Source: Oscillospiraceae bacterium (GTDB lineage Bacteria; Bacillota; Clostridia; UBA1381). From it: a DNA stretch of 32,813 nucleotides. Positions 861 to 12,181 of this stretch are shown piece by piece. The notes beneath the pieces were generated by a model, which saw only the letters and a program-made list of their open reading frames with translations, ran no database searches and was not told the DNA's origin. Where the stretch lies: positions 1-32,813 of the forward strand of contig SVJN01000008.1 of NCBI GenBank assembly GCA_015068965.1, in the 5' to 3' direction. The position numbers and the translations under genes are program-made. The stretch's first letter is position 1. Each line of letters begins with the position of its first letter.

Positions 861-2036
861 ATGGGAAACAGAATTTGTATTCCGGATTATGAGTACGCAG
901 AAAGAATCAAGCGTGCAGCAGTAATGCTCAGAGAAAAGGGCTTGGACGTTATGGTGGTTGCAAGCACCGAATCAGACTATGCAAACGCAAGATATTTCAG
1001 CGGTTTCTGGCCGTTGTTTGAACGAGCAGGTGTTGCAATTTCCGCAAACGGAGATGCGGCTTTGCTGGTAGGCCCGGAATCCGCAGTATTCGGAAGAGAT
1101 TTCGGAAAGCTGGACAAGGTGTTTGTATTAAAGGAATTCAGAGAATCCGCAGACCCGTCCTATCCGGAGCTGCATGCAGACACTTTTCTAGATGTGTTTA
1201 AGAGCATTGGTGTTACCGGAGAGCATTTAAAGATCGGTCTGGGCAGCTATGTTGAGTGTACCCTGCCGATTTATGAGGGCCTGAAGGATAGCTTCCCGAA
1301 GGCAGAAATTATCCGTTGTAATGATATCATGGTGAACCTGCGTAAAATCAAGAGTGAAAATGAGCTTGCCTGCATTCAGGAAGGCTTCCGTATCATTGAA
1401 TTGGCTACCGATGAGGTAATCCGTCAGTTGAAGCCGGGTGTAACCGAGTTACAGATGGTTGGTGTTGCACAGAAGGTAATCTATGAGGAGGGTGCAGAAT
1501 ATGAGGGTCTGCCGATGTATGTGTTCAGCGAAGAATCCACCCGCCATGCAATCAGCCGCTCCCGATACAGAACCATTGGCAAGGGCGATATTGTACAGTT
1601 GAATCTTTCCGCAAAGATTGACGGTTATTCTCCGTCCATCGGTCTGCCGGTTGTCATGGGTAAATTAGAAGGCGAACGCCGTGAGATTGTTCAGTTCTGT
1701 CTGGATGCACACAATTGGACCTTAGACCAGATTAAAGCAGGTGTAATGGCAAGTGACATTGCAAAGGGCTTTTACAAGCTCTATGAGGATAACGGCATGA
1801 AGGAGCGGTTTGTATACGGACCGTGTCACGGAACCGGTATGATTGAGGTAGAAGCTCCGTGGATGGAAACCACCAGTGATTATCTGCTGGAAGAAAATAT
1901 GACCTTCCAGGTTGACACCTTTATCTCCGGCCCGACCTTCGGAACCAGATGGGAAAAGGGGATTGTCGTAACCAAGGACGGATGCCGTTCTATGACAGAT
2001 TATCTCAAGAAAGGAATTATTGAAATTGATGTGTAA
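861..2036 (+). CDS. M24 / creatinase-fold protein with degenerate metal site
   Basis: 391 residues from ATG 861, preceded by GGAGG; a longer TTG start at 846 would bury that ribosome binding site. The protein has the two-part layout of Xaa-Pro peptidases and creatinase: an N-terminal domain (about 1-150) and a C-terminal pita-bread domain (about 160-391). In metal-dependent members five ligands (D, D, H, E, E) are conserved. Here the positions read N248 (in QLNLSAKIDGY), S259, H323 (in CHGTG), D352 (in QVDTF) and E365 (in RWEKGIVV), so two Asp are gone and one Glu is Asp. Metal-free creatinase likewise has LN in place of the first Asp, and H229 (in TRHAISR) lies where creatinase has its catalytic His. 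It is first in an operon whose third gene is creatininase-like. A metal-independent C-N hydrolase is inferred; the substrate is unknown. Confidence 0.8.
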   Translation: MGNRICIPDYEYAERIKRAAVMLREKGLDVMVVASTESDYANARYFSGFWPLFERAGVAISANGDAALLVGPESAVFGRDFGKLDKVFVLKEFRESADPSYPELHADTFLDVFKSIGVTGEHLKIGLGSYVECTLPIYEGLKDSFPKAEIIRCNDIMVNLRKIKSENELACIQEGFRIIELATDEVIRQLKPGVTELQMVGVAQKVIYEEGAEYEGLPMYVFSEESTRHAISRSRYRTIGKGDIVQLNLSAKIDGYSPSIGLPVVMGKLEGERREIVQFCLDAHNWTLDQIKAGVMASDIAKGFYKLYEDNGMKERFVYGPCHGTGMIEVEAPWMETTSDYLLEENMTFQVDTFISGPTFGTRWEKGIVVTKDGCRSMTDYLKKGIIEIDV

Positions 2037-2403
2037 GGATGGAATCGGAAAAAGAACATGGCTGATTCCCGACTGTGAGCTTCCCGAAGCAGGAGAAGGA
2101 ATCTTAAAAGGTCATGAATCGGTGATTGTTGTCAATGACAATGATAAAGATGTGAATATCAAGGTGACACTTTACTTTGCAGACCGGGATTGCTATGAGG
2201 ATATTTCCTGGCTGGTAGAGAAAAAGAGAGTCCGTTGCTTCAGGATGAACAATACCGAGGATATGTGCGGATTTTGTGTCCCTTATGACACACAGTATGC
2301 AATGAAATTAGAGGCAGACGGGAATATTGTGGTGCAGTACGGTCGTCTGGATAACCGCCAGACCAACCTTGCATATTACACCACGTTGGGATATGCCGAA
2401 TAA
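2029..2403 (+). CDS. Sensory rhodopsin transducer (ASRT) family protein
   Basis: 124 residues from ATG 2029, which overlaps the TAA of the preceding gene (ATGTGTAA), implying translational coupling. An in-frame TTG at 2020, four bases after AAGAAAGGA, is an alternative start. The sequence carries the landmarks of the Anabaena sensory rhodopsin transducer family: GKRTWLIPD at the N-terminus, GHESVIVVNDND, IKVTLYFADRD in the middle and VVQYGRLDNRQTNLAYYTTL at the end. The family is a small all-beta fold forming oligomers. Comparative genomics has proposed that it binds small molecules, and most members occur without any rhodopsin. No opsin gene is present here. Sitting between creatinase-fold and creatininase-fold genes, it probably binds or presents the operon's substrate; that role is inference. 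Confidence 0.85.
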   Translation: MCKDGIGKRTWLIPDCELPEAGEGILKGHESVIVVNDNDKDVNIKVTLYFADRDCYEDISWLVEKKRVRCFRMNNTEDMCGFCVPYDTQYAMKLEADGNIVVQYGRLDNRQTNLAYYTTLGYAE

Positions 2404-2415
2404 GGAGGAATTAGG

Positions 2416-3150
2416 ATGTATCTGGATTTATGCTTTCCGCGGGAAATCGAAGCGGCAAAAGAAAAGCATACACCGGTTGTCATTGTCGGCGGAACGGTGG
2501 AATATCACGGACCGCATTGTGCCTATGGATGTGATACGCTGATTGCACAAGGTCTGGTGGAAAAGCTTTCCGAAAAAAAGGATATCATTATTGCACCGCC
2601 AATCAGCTACAGTCCTGCAAGCTATGCGGTGGCTGATGAAAAGAGCGGAACGGTTCACGTTGAGGAAAATGCGTTTGAAGAATACCTTTACTATGTATTT
2701 ATGAGTATGCTTTCTTCAGGACTTCGTAACATCTATGTGGTGATTCATCACCAGTTTGAGCAGGAATCGCTGATGCCGATGACACTTTCTTATATGAAGG
2801 CGGCAAAACGGGCGACCATGAAGTATCTGGAAAAAACAAAAGGACAAGGCTGGTGGGGAAGCGAAAGCTACTGTGATTACTATGAAAATCTGGAAAATGA
2901 AGAGAATCCGTTTTCCTGGATTCAGGTCATTCCGACCATGAGCAAGGAGGTTCAGAATGCGACGGGATATGACCATGCCGGGAAATTTGAATGCTCCATT
3001 TTAATGTCCCTCTATCCGGAGGCGGTCAAGCTGGAACGGCTTGATGATATCAAGCATTGGTTTACAAAAAGTGCAGAGGGTGCAAACCGTGTGCTGGGCG
3101 ATGAAATGGTAAAATTGTCTTTGGATTATCTGGAAAAAAGAATTATTTGA
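2416..3150 (+). CDS. Creatininase-family amidohydrolase
   Basis: 244 residues from ATG 2416, seven bases after AAGGAGG. The creatininase signature is clear: TVEYHGPHCAYGCD gives E29, H31 and D40, with the same spacing as the Glu/His/Asp metal ligands of Pseudomonas creatininase. GYDHAGKFEC gives H187 and E192, the downstream His and Glu of the family. The usual metal-site segment (NGHYEN or NGHGGN) is replaced by IHHQFEQ, keeping E115 but with Q113 where a ligand His is expected; H111 or H112 could compensate. Family members cleave cyclic or linear amides (creatinine, formamides, mycofactocin peptides). It is the last gene of the operon with the creatinase-fold and ASRT genes, 12 bases after the latter, and is followed by a terminator. 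The substrate is unknown. Confidence 0.85.
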   Translation: MYLDLCFPREIEAAKEKHTPVVIVGGTVEYHGPHCAYGCDTLIAQGLVEKLSEKKDIIIAPPISYSPASYAVADEKSGTVHVEENAFEEYLYYVFMSMLSSGLRNIYVVIHHQFEQESLMPMTLSYMKAAKRATMKYLEKTKGQGWWGSESYCDYYENLENEENPFSWIQVIPTMSKEVQNATGYDHAGKFECSILMSLYPEAVKLERLDDIKHWFTKSAEGANRVLGDEMVKLSLDYLEKRII

Positions 3151-3191
3151 AAAAAAGTTGAGATTGCGAATCAGGCAATCTCAACTTTTTT
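3151..3191 (+). terminator. Intrinsic terminator after the creatininase-family gene
   Basis: A perfect 17-base-pair stem (3151-3167 with 3175-3191) with a 7-base loop starts directly after the stop codon. It has A-tract and T-tract ends, so it could act in both directions. It separates the three-gene operon from the alpha-mannosidase gene. Confidence 0.9.
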
Positions 3192-3246
3192 GAATGAATA
3201 GAGCATTTTTGCTCGGAAAGTCTACAAAAAATAGACACCTCTCATC

Positions 3247-3275
3247 TTGACTTTTGATGTTGTCTTGGATATAAT
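3247..3275 (+). promoter_or_regulatory. Sigma-A promoter of the alpha-mannosidase gene
   Basis: TTGACT (3247-3252), a 17-base spacer and a perfect TATAAT (3270-3275), 27 bases before the start codon. The gene therefore has its own strong promoter. Confidence 0.8.
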
Positions 3276-3302: not shown

Positions 3303-5978
3303 ATGAAGAAAAATGTACATATTATTTCGCATTCACATTGGGATAGAGAGTGGTATATGCCCTTTGAATACCACCGTTTCCATTTGATAGAGTTAATTGA
3401 CACCTGCATGAAGCTGTTTGAGACAGACCTGGATTTTCGTGGATTTCATTTAGACGGTCACACCGCACTTTTGGAGGACTATCTGGAAATCAAACCGCAA
3501 AGCAAAGAAAAACTCAGACAATATGTGCAGGAAGGAAAATTTGCAATCGGCCCGTGGTACGTTCTGCAGGATGAGTTCTTAACCAGCAGTGAGGCAAATA
3601 TCCGTAATCTTTTAACCGGTATGCAGATTGCAGAGGAATATGGCAAGGTGTGCCATGCAGGATATTTTCCGGACTCCTTCGGTAATGCCGGACAGATGCC
3701 CCAGATTATGAAGCAGGCAGGAATGCGTGCGATTGTATTCGGACGCGGTGTAAAGCCAACCGGGGAGAACAATACAGTTTCGGACGGCGGTTATGAGTCG
3801 CAGTTTTCCGAAATGTTCTGGGAATCTCCCGACGGAAGCCGACTCCCGGCAATTCTCTTTGCAAACTGGTACAATAATGGTTGGGAGGTTCCGGTGGATG
3901 CTAATGAGGATTATTGGCTTCCGAAGCTTGCGGCAGTTGAAAAGTATGCCGGAACGGATGAGCTTCTGATGATGAACGGCTGTGACCATCAGCCGGTACA
4001 ATGTGATATCACCGAGGCAATCAAAAATGCCGAGGAAAAATATCCGGACTATCACTTTATCCATTCGGGTTTTGAAACATATATGGATGCGTTACTGCCT
4101 AAAATGGATGAGAGCTTTACCGTGGTAAAGGGTGAGTTAATCAGCCAGGACACCGACGGCTGGACAACCCTGGTCAATACCTGCTCCACCATGGTGGATT
4201 TGAAGGTTGCAAACCGAAAAGGGGAACAGCTGTTAGAAAATATTGCCGAGCCGTTGGCTTGTGTTGCGGCACAATATGGCATGGAATATCCGCATGATAT
4301 GCTCTTGTATGCATGGAAAACTCTGATGAAGAATCATCCGCATGACAGTATCTGCAGTTGCAGCTGTGACGAGGTCAATGACGAGGTGCGGATGCGTTTT
4401 CAAAAAAGCCGTCAGGCAGCGGAGCGGATTGTGGAGGAAACCCTTTCCTATCTTGCAAAGAAAATTGACCGTACCGGCTTTGATGATTGTGATGCCGTGT
4501 TTGCGGTGTTCAATCCCTTTGGAAAACCGCAGACTGACACTGTTTGTGTCAATGTAGATGTGGAACGTCATTATGGCTATGGCGATTTTATGAAGCATGT
4601 ACAGGATATTAAGAGTCTGCCGGAGGAATCTTATGAATTGGTGGATGCATCGGGTAAGGTGATTGCCTGCAGTGTTACGAAGGCAGAGCCTCGGTTTGGC
4701 TATGACCTGCCCAAGGATAAATTCAGACAGCCCTATCTTGCAAAGCAGGTTATGGTCAGCTTTGAGGCGTGCGATGTTCCGGCAATGGGCTATGCAGTCT
4801 ATGGAATCAGAAGGGTGGAAAAGGTGAAAGAAAAGGCATCGCTGATAACCGGCAAGCATTGCATGGAAAACGAACTGCTCCGGGCACAAATCAACCCGGA
4901 CGGAACGGTAACACTTCTGGATAAAAAGAACGACCGTATCTTCTACGATCTGCTCCGCTATGAGGATGTCGGAGATAACGGAAACGAATATATCTTTGCG
5001 CCGGTACCGGGGGATATGCCGATTTTATCCGGCAATACGCCTGCAGAAATTGAACTGATTCGTGACGAGGAATTCTGTGCAGAATATAAAATTACGACCA
5101 GGATGCAGATTCCTGCCGAGGCAGATGCAAAGCTTTCGGAGGAACGTTCTGTGATGATGGGATTAAGACACCGTCAGGCAAAACGTGGGAAAGAACTGGT
5201 TGAACTCAAGCTTGAGACCTATGTTTCTTTAGAAAAGAATGCCAAGGCGTTAAAGGTCAGAACGGCGTTTACCAATCCGGCAAAGGATCACCGCTTGCGT
5301 GTGCTGATTCCGACCGGAATAAAAACCGATGTACATAAGGTGGAATCGGTGTTTGAAGCTGCACAACGGAACAACGAGCATAAACCCACATGGACCTATC
5401 CGAGCGGTTGCGAGCATCAGCAAGGCTTTGTGATGCTGTCGGATGAGCAATCCGGCTTGGCAGTTGCGAATATCGGTTTATACGAATATGAAGTGTTGAA
5501 GGACAGAACCCTTGCCCTGACCATCCTGCGTGCAACCGGAGAGCTGGGCGACTGGGGCGTGTTCCCGACTAAGCTTTCGCAATGCTTACGGGATTTCTCG
5601 TTAGAATATGAAATCATGCCCTTTGGGAATGAGGATGAGGCTTTTTCTGAAATGGCGGCATACCAGTATCCGATGCAATCGGTACAGCTTCTGTCGGAGT
5701 CGGACGGAGCTTACCAAAACGGTCAGCTTGTCTGGACGGGTGAGGAGCTTCGTATGACTGCATTCAAAAAGGCACAGGGTGGAAATAACCTTATCCTGCG
5801 TTGGGTGAACTATTCGGGGAAGGAACAAACCTTGTTTGTGAAAAAATCGGCTTGGATTTCCAATCTTTATCGCAGCAATGTGTTGGAACAAAAGCTGGAA
5901 GAATTAAAGGAATCAAAGGACGGCTGGACGGTCATAGTAAAGCCGTATGAAATTATAACCTTAGGGGTAGAGCAATAA
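3303..5978 (+). CDS. GH38 alpha-mannosidase
   Basis: 891 residues from ATG 3303, eight bases after AAGGAGG (3288-3294); an in-frame ATG at 3282 precedes that site and is not used. GH38 retaining enzymes release alpha-mannose with a zinc ion. The N-terminal catalytic domain shows SHSHWDREWY with zinc ligands H12 and D14, GYFPDSFGNAGQMP with the nucleophile D124, and NHPHDSICSC (H345, H347, D348) carrying the fourth ligand. Downstream are the helical and beta-sandwich domains usual for the family, and the length matches bacterial MngB-like enzymes. There is no signal peptide, so it acts in the cytoplasm on imported manno-oligosaccharides or a mannosyl conjugate. It has its own promoter, and an MFS transporter follows beyond a repeat element. 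Linkage specificity is not readable. Confidence 0.93.
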   Translation: MKKNVHIISHSHWDREWYMPFEYHRFHLIELIDTCMKLFETDLDFRGFHLDGHTALLEDYLEIKPQSKEKLRQYVQEGKFAIGPWYVLQDEFLTSSEANIRNLLTGMQIAEEYGKVCHAGYFPDSFGNAGQMPQIMKQAGMRAIVFGRGVKPTGENNTVSDGGYESQFSEMFWESPDGSRLPAILFANWYNNGWEVPVDANEDYWLPKLAAVEKYAGTDELLMMNGCDHQPVQCDITEAIKNAEEKYPDYHFIHSGFETYMDALLPKMDESFTVVKGELISQDTDGWTTLVNTCSTMVDLKVANRKGEQLLENIAEPLACVAAQYGMEYPHDMLLYAWKTLMKNHPHDSICSCSCDEVNDEVRMRFQKSRQAAERIVEETLSYLAKKIDRTGFDDCDAVFAVFNPFGKPQTDTVCVNVDVERHYGYGDFMKHVQDIKSLPEESYELVDASGKVIACSVTKAEPRFGYDLPKDKFRQPYLAKQVMVSFEACDVPAMGYAVYGIRRVEKVKEKASLITGKHCMENELLRAQINPDGTVTLLDKKNDRIFYDLLRYEDVGDNGNEYIFAPVPGDMPILSGNTPAEIELIRDEEFCAEYKITTRMQIPAEADAKLSEERSVMMGLRHRQAKRGKELVELKLETYVSLEKNAKALKVRTAFTNPAKDHRLRVLIPTGIKTDVHKVESVFEAAQRNNEHKPTWTYPSGCEHQQGFVMLSDEQSGLAVANIGLYEYEVLKDRTLALTILRATGELGDWGVFPTKLSQCLRDFSLEYEIMPFGNEDEAFSEMAAYQYPMQSVQLLSESDGAYQNGQLVWTGEELRMTAFKKAQGGNNLILRWVNYSGKEQTLFVKKSAWISNLYRSNVLEQKLEELKESKDGWTVIVKPYEIITLGVEQ

Positions 5979-5982
5979 GGAT

Positions 5983-6136
5983 AAGAGGGCTGTTGCGTTA
6001 AATATTTTGTGTATAAGCTATTCAAAATTGTAGGGCGGATGCTTACATCCGCCCGAATTGCGGGGCGATGTGGGCATCGCCCCCTACAAGAAAACGAATT
6101 TTTATACACAATAGGTGTTTAACACAATAGCCTCTT
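5983..6136. repeat. 154-base palindromic MITE-like element
   Basis: The two halves are imperfect inverted repeats along almost their whole length: about 53 bases from AAGAGGGCTGTTGCGTTAAA on the left pair with the right end read in reverse (AAGAGGCTATTGTGTTAAA). The core, 6028-6089, is bounded by TTGTAGGG and CCCTACAA and contains two perfect 9-base-pair hairpins: GGGCGGATG/CATCCGCCC (6033-6054) and GGGGCGATG/CATCGCCCC (6062-6083). It holds no reading frame. It looks like a small non-autonomous insertion, or one palindromic repeat inserted in another, lying between the mannosidase and transporter genes. The RNA could fold into a long hairpin and reduce read-through. Confidence 0.75.
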
Positions 6137-6207
6137 GCTTTGATGTATGATTATCGACTTTTTGCGTTCTGGACAGTTTTAACATCCCTATAAACTTTGG
6201 AGGAATT

Positions 6208-7359
6208 ATGGCAACTTTGTTACTGGTAGTTATTTATATTGCATTCATCGGATTGGGAATCCCGGATTCTTTGTTCGGAGCGGCATGGCCGGCAATGTAT
6301 CCCGAATTGGGCGTGCCGGTTTCTACCGCAAACATCATCACAACCTTCATCACCGCCTGCACCGTTTTTGCAAGTGTAAGCTCTGCAAAGGTTATCCGTC
6401 GGTTCGGAACCCCGAAGGTGGCGGCAGTCAGTACCCTGATGACAGCAGTGGGGTTATTTGGATTTTCCTGCTCGGACCATGTGCTTTGGTTTTGTCTGTT
6501 CGGGATTCCGTTGGGACTTGGTGCCGGTGCAATTGATTCGGCACTTAATAATTATGTCGCACTCCATTATCAGGCATCTCATATGAATTTTCTGCATTGC
6601 TTTTACGGAATCGGCGTTTCGTTGAGTCCTTACCTGATGTCGGTGGCTCTTGCACACACAAGCTGGCAGGCTGGCTATCGCATGGCGGCATATGTACAGA
6701 CGGCAATTGTCCTCATTGCATTTTTGTCCCTGCCCATCTGGAGCAAGGCACATCCCGAGGCAGTTGGTGAGGAGGAGACAAAAAATCCGCTTTCTCTTAC
6801 CCAAGTGGTACGACTTCCAAAGCTCTGGAATATGGTTATGATTTTTTTGACCTCCTGTGGTGTGGAATGTACCTGCGGCATCTGGGGCAGTACCTTTTTG
6901 GTGCAGGCGAAGGGGCTTTCGGCAGATACTGCCGCATGGGTGATTATGTTCTTCTATATCGGCATGGCGTTGGGACGGTTTTTGTCGGGGGTATTATCTG
7001 CAAAAATCTCCTCCTGGGGACTGATTCGGTTAGGGGAATTGGTGATGGTGGTTGCTTTTTTATTGCTACTTCTGCCCGCTCCGGCGGCGGTTTCGGGTGT
7101 CGGACTTTTTCTGATTGGGTTGGGAAACGGTCCGGTTTTTCCGAATCTGATTCATCTAACCCCGAAAATCTTCGGAGAGGAAACCTCGCAATCGGTTATG
7201 GGAGTACAGATGGGTGCGGCATATGTCGGAATCATGGTGATTCCGGTCATCTGCGGAGTTCTGATTCAGGAAATTGCGGCAGAAATCTTTGTCGGATATA
7301 ATCTGATTTTCTTTTTGCTGATGCTCTTTTTTGTGCGGACGATGCAAAAGAAAAAATAA
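6208..7359 (+). CDS. MFS transporter
   Basis: 383 residues from ATG 6208, four bases after GGAGG. The protein is almost entirely hydrophobic, with about 12 predicted membrane segments in two halves, as in the major facilitator superfamily. Cytoplasmic-loop basic motifs occur after the second segment (KVIRRFGTPK) and in the second half (GRFLSGVLSAKISSWG). The segment GAIDSALNNYVALHYQASHMNFLHCFYGIG resembles sugar-type MFS carriers (FucP/GlcP-like), where asparagine and histidine in this helix help bind sugar. It lies downstream of the alpha-mannosidase, separated by the repeat element, so import of the mannoside or its products is a reasonable inference. Substrate and direction are not provable here. 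Confidence 0.85.
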   Translation: MATLLLVVIYIAFIGLGIPDSLFGAAWPAMYPELGVPVSTANIITTFITACTVFASVSSAKVIRRFGTPKVAAVSTLMTAVGLFGFSCSDHVLWFCLFGIPLGLGAGAIDSALNNYVALHYQASHMNFLHCFYGIGVSLSPYLMSVALAHTSWQAGYRMAAYVQTAIVLIAFLSLPIWSKAHPEAVGEEETKNPLSLTQVVRLPKLWNMVMIFLTSCGVECTCGIWGSTFLVQAKGLSADTAAWVIMFFYIGMALGRFLSGVLSAKISSWGLIRLGELVMVVAFLLLLLPAPAAVSGVGLFLIGLGNGPVFPNLIHLTPKIFGEETSQSVMGVQMGAAYVGIMVIPVICGVLIQEIAAEIFVGYNLIFFLLMLFFVRTMQKKK

Positions 7360-7385
7360 ATTTTTGAAAAAATTCAAAATAACTA

Positions 7386-7414
7386 TAGACGAAACGGATA
7401 AAATATAGTAAAAT
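7386..7414 (+). promoter_or_regulatory. Probable promoter of the Asp23-fakA operon
   Basis: TAGACG (7386-7391), 17 bases, TAAAAT (7409-7414), followed 31 bases later by the start codon of the Asp23-family gene. Four of six and five of six consensus matches; the spacing is ideal. Confidence 0.45.
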
Positions 7415-7445
7415 AAGAATATATGCAAGAAAGGATGATGATACG

Positions 7446-7796
7446 ATGGCAATAAAAATCAACAGTGATTTAGGCGAGATTTTTGTGGATAACAATGTCA
7501 TTGCGTCGATTGCAGGAGCAGTAGCAACCAAGTGCTACGGCGTTGTCGGCATGGCTGCAAAGGGAAAAAAGGATGATATTGTTCAGCTTCTGAAAAAAGA
7601 GAATATGGCAAAGGGAATTAGAATAGATACGCAGGATAACGGCATCGTGATTGATATGAGTATTGTTGTGGAATACGGTGTGAACATTCACGCAATCTGT
7701 GACAGTATTATCAATAATGTCCGTTATAAGTTAGAGCATCAGACCGGGCTTAAGGTCAATAAAATCAATGTGCAGGTGGAATCGGTCAGAGTGTGA
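7446..7796 (+). CDS. Asp23/Gls24 family envelope stress protein
   Basis: 116 residues from ATG 7446, preceded by AAAGGATG. The whole protein is one Asp23 (DUF322) domain: the N-terminal GEIFVDNNVIASIAGAVATK, the YGVVGMAAKG loop and the C-terminal VNIHAICDSIINNVRYKLE followed by VNKINVQVESVRV. There is no signal peptide or membrane segment, so it is cytoplasmic or membrane-associated through a partner. In Firmicutes this gene (yloU in Bacillus subtilis) is nearly always directly upstream of the fatty-acid kinase subunit gene yloV/fakA, as it is here, and the two are cotranscribed. Its biochemical role in this context is unclear; envelope or lipid homeostasis is inferred from family and context. 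Confidence 0.9.
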   Translation: MAIKINSDLGEIFVDNNVIASIAGAVATKCYGVVGMAAKGKKDDIVQLLKKENMAKGIRIDTQDNGIVIDMSIVVEYGVNIHAICDSIINNVRYKLEHQTGLKVNKINVQVESVRV

Positions 7797-7818
7797 CCGC
7801 TGTTAGGAGGAGATTAAA

Positions 7819-9441
7819 ATTAACAGGATTGATGGAAAATTACTTGCACATATGATGATATCAGGTGCAAATAATCTATATAATAAACGGCAGACGGTGG
7901 ATGAGCTAAATGTGTTCCCGGTACCCGATGGTGATACCGGTACCAATATGTCCATGACGGTCTGTGCAATGGCAAAGGCGGTTGCGGAATTGATTTCTCC
8001 GTCGGTTTCCAAGGTGGCAGATACGCTTTCCTATGCAACCTTGCGTGGCGCAAGAGGAAACTCCGGTGTTATTTTATCCCAGTTCTTCCGTGGCATTGCA
8101 AAAAGTGTAAAAGGCAAAACAGAAATTGATGCAAAAGAGCTTGCAGATGCTTTGAAAAAAGGCTCGGATGCTGCATATAAAGCGGTTATGAACCCGACTG
8201 AGGGTACCATTTTAACGGTTGCCCGTGAGATTGCACAACGTGCAGTTTTAAAGAGTGAGGAAGAGTCGGATGTTCAGGTTGTGCTGGAAAAAGCGCTAAA
8301 GCACGGTGCAAAGGTACTTGCAAAAACGCCGGAAATGCTCCCGGCTTTGAAAAAAGCAGGGGTTGTGGATGCGGGCGGTCAGGGCTGGCTGTTCTTCTTA
8401 GAGGGTGCCCTGTACTATCTGCAAAACCAGAAGGAAATCGAAAAGAGCGAGCAGGAAACTGAACCGGTCAACGCAGAAGCACAGACCGCCGCAGAGGTTG
8501 CTAATATCCGCTTTATGTACTGCACCGAGTTCATTATCGAAAAGAAGAACCCGAACGTCAATGTGCTTGCATTCCGTGAAGCAATTGCCGAGAAGGGCGA
8601 CAGTATGCTTGTCATTGACGATGATGACATTGTCAAGGTGCATATCCACACCAACCATCCGGGCTATGTACTGGAAAAGGCGGTACAGTTAGGTGCGATG
8701 ATTAACATTAAGATTGATAATATGAAGCATCAGCACCAGAATCTGATTGATAAGGAAGAAGAAAAAGCAATTCCGAAGGAAAAACAGGAAATTGCATTTG
8801 TGGCAGTTTGTGCCGGAGACGGTATCAGCGGTATTTTAAAGGAGCTGGGTGTGAATCGCATCATTGAGGGGGGTCAGACCATGAATCCGAGTACCGAGGA
8901 TATTTTAAAGGCAGTTGCCCAGGTCAATGCAAAGACTGTGTTTGTGTTCCCGAATAATAAGAATATTATCTTAGCGGCAAATCAGGCAAAGGAGCTTTGC
9001 GAGGATGAAATCATTGTGATTCCGACTCGTTCCTTGCCGGAATGTGTTGGTGCAATGCTTGCCTACAAGGGACAAAAAACACCGGCGGATAATGAAAAGG
9101 CAATGCTTCGTGCCATTGAGGGGATTACAGTCGGACAAATTACCTATGCTGTCCGTGATACCGAGGTGGATGGAACTGTCATTTCCGAGGGTGATATTTT
9201 GGGAATTTGCAAGGGCAAAATCGTACAGACCGGAAAGGAACCGGAATCTGTTTTAAAGGAATTGGTTACAGGAATGTGCGATGAGGACAGCGAATTTTTA
9301 ACGGTTTATTATGGGCAGGATGTTTCCAAGGAAACTGCAGAAGCTTTGGGTGAGCAGTTGGAAGAGGAATATCCCGAGCTGGAGATTACCGTACAGTATG
9401 GCGGTCAGCCGCTTTATTACTATATTTTATCGGTAGAATAG
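7819..9441 (+). CDS. fakA: DAK2 / FakA-like kinase subunit, apparent ATT start
   Basis: FakA phosphorylates fatty acids bound to FakB, feeding exogenous fatty acids into phospholipid. The DAK2 ATP-binding domain holds LNVFPVPDGDTGTNM, whose acidic residues bind Mg-ATP, LRGARGNSGVILSQFFRG and GVVDAGGQGW. A linker and a FakB/DegV-like C-terminal half follow. The first ATG is 7852, but family homology begins earlier (INRIDGKLLAHMM) and the only ribosome binding site, AGGAGG (7805-7810), is 41 bases from that ATG. It is 8 bases from an ATT at 7819. The frame is closed by TAG at 7804-7806 and contains no ATG, GTG or TTG before 7852. I therefore place the start at ATT 7819 (540 residues); 7852 (529 residues) is the conservative alternative. 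It is cotranscribed with the Asp23 gene, and recG follows 10 bases downstream. Confidence 0.88.
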   Translation: MNRIDGKLLAHMMISGANNLYNKRQTVDELNVFPVPDGDTGTNMSMTVCAMAKAVAELISPSVSKVADTLSYATLRGARGNSGVILSQFFRGIAKSVKGKTEIDAKELADALKKGSDAAYKAVMNPTEGTILTVAREIAQRAVLKSEEESDVQVVLEKALKHGAKVLAKTPEMLPALKKAGVVDAGGQGWLFFLEGALYYLQNQKEIEKSEQETEPVNAEAQTAAEVANIRFMYCTEFIIEKKNPNVNVLAFREAIAEKGDSMLVIDDDDIVKVHIHTNHPGYVLEKAVQLGAMINIKIDNMKHQHQNLIDKEEEKAIPKEKQEIAFVAVCAGDGISGILKELGVNRIIEGGQTMNPSTEDILKAVAQVNAKTVFVFPNNKNIILAANQAKELCEDEIIVIPTRSLPECVGAMLAYKGQKTPADNEKAMLRAIEGITVGQITYAVRDTEVDGTVISEGDILGICKGKIVQTGKEPESVLKELVTGMCDEDSEFLTVYYGQDVSKETAEALGEQLEEEYPELEITVQYGGQPLYYYILSVE

Positions 9442-9451
9442 GGAGAATGTT

Positions 9452-11488
9452 GTGGAAAAGAAGTTGTCACAGAGTGTCCGTAGCTTAGACGGTGTCGGCG
9501 AGGTGCGTGGAAAACTGTTGGAAAACAAGCAGATTTCCACCATAGAGGACTTACTCTATTATTTTCCAAGAGCATATGAAGACAGAACGCAGGAAAAGGA
9601 AATTGCGTTGTGTGAAGATGGAGAAACGGTATGCATCAAAGCTACCGTTTTTTCGCCTGTAAAGGAAGCACGCATCCGGAAGAATATGGCAATCTATTCA
9701 ATGGAGGTCACCGACGATAGCGGCGTGATGAAAATTGTCTGGTACAATAACCGGTTCATGAAGGGCAGATTTAAAAGCGGTGAGGTCTATGTGTTCTATG
9801 GCGTAGTAAAGCGGGTTGGCAGAACCCGTGAAATGCTCAACCCGATTTTTGAAACTCCGGGAAAACAACGTCAGACCGGCAGAATTATGCCGATTTACCC
9901 GCTTTGGGCAAATCTGACACAGAACTTTTTGCAAGGCTTAACCCGGAAAGCATTGGATGCTTACCGGATAACGGACTGGATTCCGCATTCGGTCAGAAAG
10001 GCATATCATCTGGCGGAAATCGGCTATGCAATGGAGCAGATGCACTATCCGCATGATGCCGATGCACAGTTGATTGCAAGAGAACGGTTTGCATTTGAGG
10101 AGCTTTTCTTGCTTCAGCTTGCATTGTTAGAAAAACGGGGACAGGTAAAAAAATATCAAAAATCTGCCTATCGGGATACGGCTTGTGTTTCGGAGTGGAT
10201 TGGGATGCTTCCGTTTGCACTCACCGGTGCACAACGGCGAGTGATTGCAGAAATTATGGAGGACTTTGAAAAAGGCGTTCCGATGAACCGTCTGGTGCAG
10301 GGAGATGTCGGCTCGGGTAAAACTGCAGTTGCAGCAGCGGCAATGTACGTTGCGGCGAAAAACGGTGAACAGTCGGTTATCATGGCACCGACCGAGATTT
10401 TAGCCAATCAGCATTACGAAACCTTTTTGGAGTTTTTTAAAGACACCTCATTTCGGATTTGTCTGCTGACCGGAAGCACAAAGGGCAAAAAACAGCTTTA
10501 TGAGCAAATCCGAAGCGGTGCTTATGATTTGGTGGTCGGAACCCATGCTGTGATTCAGAAGGCAGTGGAATTTTCTAAGCTTGGTCTGGTCATTGCGGAT
10601 GAACAACACCGGTTCGGGGTCAAACAACGTGCTATGCTTTCAGAAAAAGGCGAGCATCCGCATTTTCTGGTTATGTCGGCAACCCCGATTCCCAGAACCC
10701 TTGCATTGATTCTCTACGGTGATTTGGATGTTTCTATCATTGATGAATTACCGCCGGGCAGAAAACCGGTTGCAACCTATGCCGTCGGGGAAAATATGCG
10801 TCAGAGGCTTTATGCATTCATCGAAAAAAATGTCAAATCCGGTACGCAAGCCTATGTGGTCTGTCCGCTGATTGAGGAGACCGAAAAAAGCGATTTGTCC
10901 AATGCTCAAACCCGTCGGGACGAGTTGGCAAGCCGGTTCCCGGATTTTCGTGTCGGCTTGGTGCATGGCAGGATGAAGGCAAAGGAAAAGGATGAAATCA
11001 TGACAGCCTTTGCCAAAGGTGAGATGGATATTTTAGTTTCCACGACCGTAATAGAGGTTGGTGTGAATGTCCCCAACAGTAATCTGATGATTATTGAAAA
11101 TGCCGAGCGGTTCGGGCTTTCCCAACTGCATCAGCTCCGGGGAAGAGTCGGTAGAGGTACGGAGCAGGCATATTGCATCCTGATAAAGCACGGCACGCAG
11201 GAAATCACCGAAAAGCGGATGAAAACCATGTGTGCCTCCAATGACGGCTTTTATATCTCGGAGCAGGATTTGAAGCTAAGAGGCCCGGGCGACTTTTTCG
11301 GAACCCGTCAGCATGGCTTGCCGGAGCTTCGGGTGGCGAATCTGTTCGAGGATATGGAAATCTTAAAGCGTGCACAGAATGCCGCCGGAGCATGGTATCG
11401 GGGCGAGCTTCCCAAAAAGGAAGCAGAGCAGGAACGGGTGGAGGAGAAAATCGAGACGATGTTCCAAAAGGCTTTGATTGATAATTAA
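9452..11488 (+). CDS. recG: ATP-dependent DNA helicase RecG
   Basis: 678 residues from GTG 9452, preceded by AGGGAGAA; the length is normal for RecG. The enzyme remodels stalled replication forks and Holliday junctions. The N-terminal wedge/OB domain (about 1-230) includes LDGVGEVRGKLLE and DLLYYFPRAYEDR. The helicase core has Walker A GDVGSGKTA, the Walker B/DEQH box in ADEQHRFGVKQR, SATPIPRTLAL as motif III, and the C-terminal motifs VSTTVIEVGVNVPNSN and QLHQLRGRVGRG. The C-terminal TRG region follows (LKLRGPGDFFGTRQHG). It lies 10 bases after the fakA-like gene, probably in the same operon, an arrangement common in Firmicutes. No hairpin terminator is obvious after it; the following 153 bases are AT-rich. 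Confidence 0.97.
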   Translation: MEKKLSQSVRSLDGVGEVRGKLLENKQISTIEDLLYYFPRAYEDRTQEKEIALCEDGETVCIKATVFSPVKEARIRKNMAIYSMEVTDDSGVMKIVWYNNRFMKGRFKSGEVYVFYGVVKRVGRTREMLNPIFETPGKQRQTGRIMPIYPLWANLTQNFLQGLTRKALDAYRITDWIPHSVRKAYHLAEIGYAMEQMHYPHDADAQLIARERFAFEELFLLQLALLEKRGQVKKYQKSAYRDTACVSEWIGMLPFALTGAQRRVIAEIMEDFEKGVPMNRLVQGDVGSGKTAVAAAAMYVAAKNGEQSVIMAPTEILANQHYETFLEFFKDTSFRICLLTGSTKGKKQLYEQIRSGAYDLVVGTHAVIQKAVEFSKLGLVIADEQHRFGVKQRAMLSEKGEHPHFLVMSATPIPRTLALILYGDLDVSIIDELPPGRKPVATYAVGENMRQRLYAFIEKNVKSGTQAYVVCPLIEETEKSDLSNAQTRRDELASRFPDFRVGLVHGRMKAKEKDEIMTAFAKGEMDILVSTTVIEVGVNVPNSNLMIIENAERFGLSQLHQLRGRVGRGTEQAYCILIKHGTQEITEKRMKTMCASNDGFYISEQDLKLRGPGDFFGTRQHGLPELRVANLFEDMEILKRAQNAAGAWYRGELPKKEAEQERVEEKIETMFQKALIDN

Positions 11489-11582
11489 ATACAGATGTTC
11501 CAAATATTGACATATTTTTGACAGAATTTTATACATTTTTTGAAAAAAGTTTGAATTTTTATAAAAAAATTACGATTTTGTG

Positions 11583-11611
11583 TTGACCTTTTCTTTGTTT
11601 TGAGATACAAT
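11583..11611 (+). promoter_or_regulatory. Sigma-A promoter of the rsmD-coaD operon
   Basis: TTGACC (11583-11588), a 17-base spacer and TACAAT (11606-11611), 30 bases before the rsmD GTG start. A second TTGACA at 11507-11512 has only a poor -10 (TATACA) at 17 bases and is less convincing. Confidence 0.75.
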
Positions 11612-11641
11612 ATAGATGTATAACATGGGAGGGACTGTATT

Positions 11642-12181
11642 GTGAGAATCATTTCCGGAAAGTTTCGGGGACGGAAGCTGTTATCCTTTGAAGGAGATTC
11701 GGTACGCCCGACAACTGACCGTGTCAAGGAATCCATGTTCAATCTGATTCAGGAGTTTGTTCCGGGAAGCCGGGTACTGGATTTGTTTGGCGGAAGCGGG
11801 GCGCTTTCTTTAGAGGCAATCAGCCGTGGTGCAGAATCGGCAGTTTGTGTAGATATCGACCCAAAGTCGATTGAGATTATCCGCAAAAACATTGCTCTGG
11901 TGCATCAGGAGGAGACCATCCGGGTACTGAATCAGTCGGCAGAGCATTTTTTGGAAAACACTCCCGGTCAGTTTCATCTTGTGTTTTTAGATCCGCCGTA
12001 TAACCGTGGGTTTATCCGTCCGATTATGGACAAGCTGGTAGAGAAAAACCTTCTTTATCCCGAGGGCATCATCGTATTGGAAAGTGATTTTTCCGATGAG
12101 CATGGGGAGATTGCGGGGCTTACCATCCTACGGCAAAAGCGTTACGGCAGGAGCTATGTCACAGTTTATCAAAGGAACTGA
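11642..12181 (+). CDS. rsmD: 16S rRNA (guanine966-N2)-methyltransferase RsmD
   Basis: 179 residues from GTG 11642, preceded by GGGAGGG. RsmD methylates N2 of G966 in 16S rRNA using S-adenosylmethionine. The N-terminus MRIISGKFRGRKL is typical, followed by RPTTDRVKESMFN. The SAM-binding glycine loop is VLDLFGGSGALSLEAISRGA, the acidic ribose-binding residue lies in VCVDIDPKS, and the catalytic N-methyltransferase motif is LDPPYN. The protein is complete and cytoplasmic. The pairing of rsmD directly before coaD (19 bases apart) is a conserved Firmicute arrangement. It is transcribed from the promoter at 11583-11611. Confidence 0.95.
   Translation: MRIISGKFRGRKLLSFEGDSVRPTTDRVKESMFNLIQEFVPGSRVLDLFGGSGALSLEAISRGAESAVCVDIDPKSIEIIRKNIALVHQEETIRVLNQSAEHFLENTPGQFHLVFLDPPYNRGFIRPIMDKLVEKNLLYPEGIIVLESDFSDEHGEIAGLTILRQKRYGRSYVTVYQRN

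Follow-up and report, generated by a model that had tools for sequence, protein, structure and literature searches.

The trio and its boundaries

The window, by which we mean the entire 32,813-nucleotide stretch of DNA analysed, carries three tightly packed genes on the forward strand that encode an M24/creatinase-fold protein with a degenerate metal site (861..2036, +), a small β-sandwich protein of the ASRT/ASRAH family (2029..2403, +) and a creatininase-fold metallohydrolase with a full metal/catalytic residue set and a WW-containing insertion at approximately residues 142-158 (2416..3150, +). The M24 gene starts at ATG 861. The ASRT gene starts at the conserved ATG 2029 (ATGTGTAA) and not at TTG 2020, its homologues beginning with MC; these 8 bases are shared with the end of the M24 gene, and 12 bases separate the ASRT stop codon from the start of the creatininase-fold gene.

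In Pfam, the M24 protein matched Peptidase_M24 (PF00557, 88 bits) and Creatinase_N (PF01321, 39 bits), both above cut-off, the ASRT protein matched PF07100 with 106 bits against a cut-off of 25, and the creatininase-fold protein matched PF02633 with 102.5 bits against 31.3. The AlphaFold2 model of the M24 protein (pLDDT 90.8) has the pita-bread fold together with the creatinase N-terminal domain; it is structurally closest to creatinase (7yto/1chm, Z 39.9) and, level with it, to Xaa-Pro dipeptidase (Z 39.8), the SPT16 domain is also among the matches, and the solved proteins closest in sequence are prolidases and aminopeptidase P. The creatininase-fold model (pLDDT 75) matched creatininase structures with Z 17-18, compared with at most 6.6 for unrelated folds. 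The ASRT protein matched PDB 2ii7 with an E value of 1e-15 and carries Trp11 on strand 1 and Asn36 in the turn between strands 2 and 3, residues diagnostic of ASRT and ASRAH domains and invariant in all aligned relatives. Since the Pfam scores and, for the two larger proteins, the structure models agree, the initial sequence-only reading was right in describing three overlapping or closely spaced genes of these families.

Directly 3' of the creatininase-fold stop codon lies an intrinsic terminator (3151..3192, +) with a perfect 17-bp stem (-23.2 kcal/mol, z -7.7), and comparable hairpins were found in 42 of 81 loci versus 2 of 81 shuffled controls. A scan for consensus terminators did not list this hairpin, probably because its U-run is base-paired within the stem. 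An 11/12 sigma-70 promoter follows at 3247-3275, just 5' of a GH38 alpha-mannosidase gene. Among 80 other loci (the best 80 of 118 relatives, see below), GH38 gave three weak matches near the trio and the gene of the major facilitator superfamily (MFS) transporter gave none. The terminator, the separate promoter and the absence of conservation indicate that alpha-mannosidase and transporter most likely form a unit of their own outside the trio operon, and the functional tie to them that had been suggested from the sequence is not supported.

On the other side, a divergent gene whose 3' part is cut by the contig end (3..662, -) encodes a product 66% identical to AraC-family proteins that, in roughly half of the relatives, are encoded divergently from the trio on its upstream side. 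Pfam gave no match with the partial product itself; all 51 of its blast matches fell into that cluster, which is AraC by Pfam, and a 12/12 sigma-70 promoter precedes the gene on the minus strand (738-710). The AraC gene is the conserved neighbour of the trio and likely its regulator. Downstream, DUF4432 proteins make up 16 of 44 same-strand neighbours in the relatives, the others including GH38, GH3, PL8 and further glycan enzymes; none of these is among the 25 first-listed of the 49 families of 44 control genes. A few trio neighbours are Gfo/Idh/MocA dehydrogenases, and in gut Clostridia the trio has neither a transporter nor a sugar kinase as a conserved neighbour. A PDB sequence search with the DUF4432 neighbour returned no match. 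A family of ~709 residues also occurs downstream in ~7 loci, e.g. at 8737-10866 of L130, whose member matched nothing in Pfam or in a PDB sequence search.

Conservation of gene order and active sites

Scanning one genome per species across 84,980 species yielded 118 relatives of the creatininase-fold gene, the best 80 of which were kept, and the presence of the trio genes was scored by tblastn and HMMs. Of these 80 loci, 67 extend 1.7 kb or more upstream of the creatininase-fold gene; the M24 gene is present in all 67 and the ASRT gene in 61, with the order M24-ASRT-creatininase and the strand kept. The co-occurrence in this order that the first reading had called for is therefore found, and the gene order is conserved far beyond chance. 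In the other six of the 67 loci ASRT is missing beside M24, and a search of their genomes turned up no ASRT in two cases, so that ASRT is not essential. The three proteins correlate in their pairwise distances (Mantel r 0.39-0.65; no value as high in 999 permutations), part of which common ancestry could explain, and median dN/dS values of 0.05-0.09 indicate strong purifying selection on the trio. In L043/L091 (~1140-2325) the M24 gene is split over two overlapping frames by a frameshift or assembly error, the trio being otherwise intact.

The carriers are uncultured Clostridia, mostly metagenome-assembled genomes (MAGs) from the hindgut of grazing animals (ruminants). Clostridia account for 79 of the best 80 records, one being unplaced, and none of the carriers seen at these 80 loci is cultured. 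Caecum, colon or rectum is given in 48 of the 52 records with a named ruminant gut site, a skew that stems partly from the available MAG catalogues.

In the M24 protein the metal ligands D,D,H,E,E are replaced by N248, S259, H323, D352 and E365, so that three of five are lost and the five-ligand set of M24 metallopeptidases is incomplete. The pattern N,S/A,H,D,E holds without exception in 76 relatives, varying (S/A) at the second site only; the degenerate metal site noted at the outset is therefore real. H323, E331, D352, E365 and R233 are invariant in the trio M24 proteins. The position of the canonical M24 substrate histidine, which we take to be creatinase His232 (with Glu262 and Glu358 presumably the other catalytic residues of that enzyme), is occupied by isoleucine. 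Other M24 paralogues of the window genome keep the canonical D,D,H,E, and the canonical residues are present in the paralogue L192. Metal loss in the trio M24 could equal loss of catalysis. Creatinase and ectoine hydrolase are M24-fold enzymes that catalyse without a metal, and thus a lost metal need not mean a lost activity.

The creatininase-fold protein has the residue set of the PF02633 superfamily: E29, H31, D40, H112, E115, H187 and E192 are invariant in 81 of 81 sequences, the first six corresponding to creatininase E34, H36, D45, H120, E122 and H178, which we take to be its metal and catalytic residues. Given this complete active site, the protein should bind two metals and hydrolyse some substrate, i.e. 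it is predicted to be an active two-metal hydrolase. Both enzymes had been described as divergent; this holds for the metal site of the M24 protein, while the creatininase-fold protein diverges in sequence but retains its active site. Its WW-containing insertion of some 15 residues is, among the compared sequences, common only to the nearest distant relative (L170).

Against the curated NCBIfam models, the creatininase-fold protein scored 60.7 bits with creatininase proper (TIGR04448, cut-off 235) and 55.9 bits with IolN (NF041098, cut-off 245), the second-best match, and it stayed below the MftE cut-off; the M24 protein scored 41-42 bits with ectoine hydrolase DoeA (cut-offs 575-613). None of the three proteins reaches the curated cut-off of a characterised enzyme. 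The trio is a real and conserved combination of known families, and apparently an undescribed one.

Two ASRT clades and a wider M24 family

Within the taxonomic order to which the window belongs, 23 of 27 ASRT loci with readable flanks have an M24 gene nearby. The ASRT tree splits into two starred clades, one made up of the M24-linked proteins (33 of 34 rows) and the other of all the rest (25 rows). The sole exception in the M24-linked clade, L049, has no M24 gene; its neighbours encode phosphotriesterase-like (PTE), GH3 and isomerase-like proteins. In that locus (4561-11692) the ASRT gene lies between GH3 genes and the PTE-family gene, with the isomerase-like gene after it. The haloarchaeon Natrononativus has a D-arabinono-1,4-lactone-oxidase-like gene with an ASRT gene on either side, apparently all in one operon (L190, 4995-7026).

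All ASRT-linked M24 proteins tested carry the lost-ligand signature and cluster in the tree (97/94, with warnings about long branches), and the signature is absent from canonical M24 proteins. When 398 genomes of the phylum were scanned with a profile, a clean gap separated signature M24 proteins above 300 bits (in 4 genomes) from ordinary M24 proteins at no more than 206 bits. By these sequence comparisons, the signature proteins are a clade of their own within M24, which follows one of the two ASRT clades.

Near signature M24 genes the metallohydrolase is exchanged, a PTE being found in L040 and L053 and an M81 protein in L055 and L056. One distant genome, G396, holds four signature copies. 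Two are located in ribose-type ABC operons under LacI (L170), one together with a creatininase-fold gene and the other with ASRT and a NodB-type deacetylase; a third has as neighbours a NodB-type (NodB/CE4) protein, an FGGY sugar kinase and two zinc dehydrogenases (L236), and the fourth is the last gene of an ABC operon that also holds a cyclase-family hydrolase (L237). The CUT2 importers near signature M24 genes all come from this genome. Its distant creatininase-fold copy was, among 60 relatives of G396, found in G396 itself only, and a plasmid search with a distant creatininase-fold relative returned only remote members (24-33% identity). In L034 and L035 no hydrolase adjoins the distant signature M24 gene; at 9937-11685 of L034, a serpin with S-layer homology domains is encoded near an M24-ASRT pair.

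A candidate catabolic operon and its alternatives

ASRAH domains have been proposed to be sugar binders, and ASRT to act through protein-protein interaction (De Souza et al. 2009, PMC2739507). The ASRT protein of the trio shares with the proteins treated there (Thermotoga TM1070, Anabaena ASRT) the family, the diagnostic Trp/Asn pair and sugar-related neighbourhoods, but belongs to the separate M24-linked clade. The main text of that paper, which has its neighbourhood list in the supplement, makes no mention of creatinase, creatininase or peptidase, and our literature search found no paper pairing "sensory rhodopsin transducer" with creatininase or Xaa-Pro. The function of ASRT outside the Anabaena rhodopsin has been without agreement since the sugar-sensor proposal of 2009.

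We tentatively favor, at somewhat less than even confidence, a self-contained catabolic operon for a sugar-like compound, probably under the divergent AraC regulator. The substrate would probably be small and sugar-like and bear a cyclic amide, a lactone or a 1,3-dicarbonyl group. The creatininase-fold enzyme, on the strength of its complete active site, would open or cleave the cyclic group with its two metals, and the metal-free M24 protein would then act on the product, by analogy with creatinase and ectoine hydrolase. ASRT may sense and bind the substrate or product and tune or assist a partner, as the earlier proposal (PMC2739507) and clade co-inheritance suggest; this co-inheritance makes the M24 protein the most likely partner. 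What we infer here about the serial action of the enzymes, the order and chemistry of the steps, the role of ASRT, control by AraC and the substrate class builds on direct observations of gene order, conservation, selection, residue sets, clade co-inheritance, hydrolase swapping, the sugar-uptake contexts of relatives and the operon limits. An undescribed pathway for an amide- or guanidine-bearing sugar or related metabolite had been suggested at first sight; conservation, scores below every curated cut-off and the sugar contexts in relatives leave a sugar-like amide or a related compound as the best guess, and the guanidine is unsupported.

In a more speculative extension, which we regard as possible but rather doubtful, the metal-free M24 branch, hitherto undescribed, might be a common second-step catalyst, each copy working with ASRT or with one of several interchangeable ring-opening metallohydrolases (of the creatininase, PTE, NodB, cyclase or M81 type) in the catabolism of amide- or lactone-bearing sugar derivatives, with the herbivore-hindgut trio as its most widespread form. 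The trio offers a compact and strongly selected system for co-expressing and screening an ASRT protein together with an intact metallohydrolase and an altered M24 protein. If the catabolic reading is right, it establishes a new subfamily of M24 proteins and a catabolic step distributed among uncultured herbivore-gut Clostridia.

Action of ASRT by protein-protein interaction (PMC2739507) would also suit a signalling system, in which the M24 protein is a ligand-binding pseudo-enzyme, ASRT the sensor subunit and the creatininase-fold enzyme the maker or destroyer of the ligand. The clade-wide loss of three metal ligands and the joint inheritance of M24 and ASRT clades fit such a system, and pseudo-enzymes of the M24 fold exist, e.g. 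the SPT16 domain. However, the invariant H323, E331, D352, E365 and R233 suggest a working pocket, related loci lie within uptake and catabolic operons, and creatinase and DoeA catalyse without a metal, so that we consider signalling unlikely. Still within catabolism, the operon could be a branch of the pathways that break down inositol or keto-sugars, with the creatininase-fold enzyme hydrolysing a diketo-inositol or keto-sugar in the manner of IolN. The IolN score of this enzyme nearly equals that for creatininase, and DUF4432 and a few Gfo/Idh/MocA dehydrogenases are among the neighbours; that score is nevertheless far below the cut-off, the dehydrogenases adjoin few loci only, and to our knowledge M24 proteins have no part in the known inositol route, which renders this branch quite improbable.

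The classical route from creatinine through creatine to sarcosine and urea would account for both partner folds side by side, and the first reading had mentioned the known creatinine and creatine pathways. A specific tie to these compounds is not borne out by the creatininase score of 60.7 bits against 235; the isoleucine at the presumed His232 position may also disfavor the route, and the ASRT link and the hydrolase swapping suggest a broader chemistry, making this pathway very unlikely. A search of the window genome for the glycine/sarcosine-reductase subunit GrdB gave no match, and the control sequences likewise gave none. Membership of the trio in a glycan-utilisation operon with GH38 and the MFS transporter, which lie nearby on the same strand, the former also near the trio in three of the other loci, was rejected as highly improbable given the strong terminator, the promoter before GH38 and the lack of conservation. 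Equally remote is ordinary peptide salvage by an Xaa-Pro dipeptidase with accessory proteins: prolidases and aminopeptidase P are indeed the closest solved sequences, but three of five peptidase metal ligands are lost in every member, and two canonical M24 enzymes are already present in the genome.

The catabolic operon that we favor resembles several known systems in part. It shares with the creatininase-creatinase pathway the two adjacent folds, the metal site being full in the first and degraded in the second, but differs in scores far below cut-off, an ASRT gene in between, the isoleucine in place of the substrate histidine and the WW insertion. Ectoine hydrolase (DoeA/EutD) likewise combines an M24 fold with lost metal ligands, but the lost set is another one and the M24 protein scores 42 bits against a cut-off of 575. 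IolN has the creatininase fold, but its score of 55.9 bits compares with a cut-off of 245 and no inositol genes are conserved beside the trio. Actinobacterial plasmids of Paenarthrobacter aurescens TC1 and Rhodococcus jostii RHA1 carry an M24-like gene directly 5' of a creatininase-family gene; these pairs, however, lack ASRT, belong to another M24 clade with the ligands E,A,Y,H,G, and are followed by MFS, PLP-enzyme and RidA genes. The pairs, with the MFS, PLP-dependent enzyme and RidA genes after them, were located at 3748-5762 of L181 and 3642-5777 of L182, and for the RHA1 M24 protein ectoine hydrolase is the closest match.
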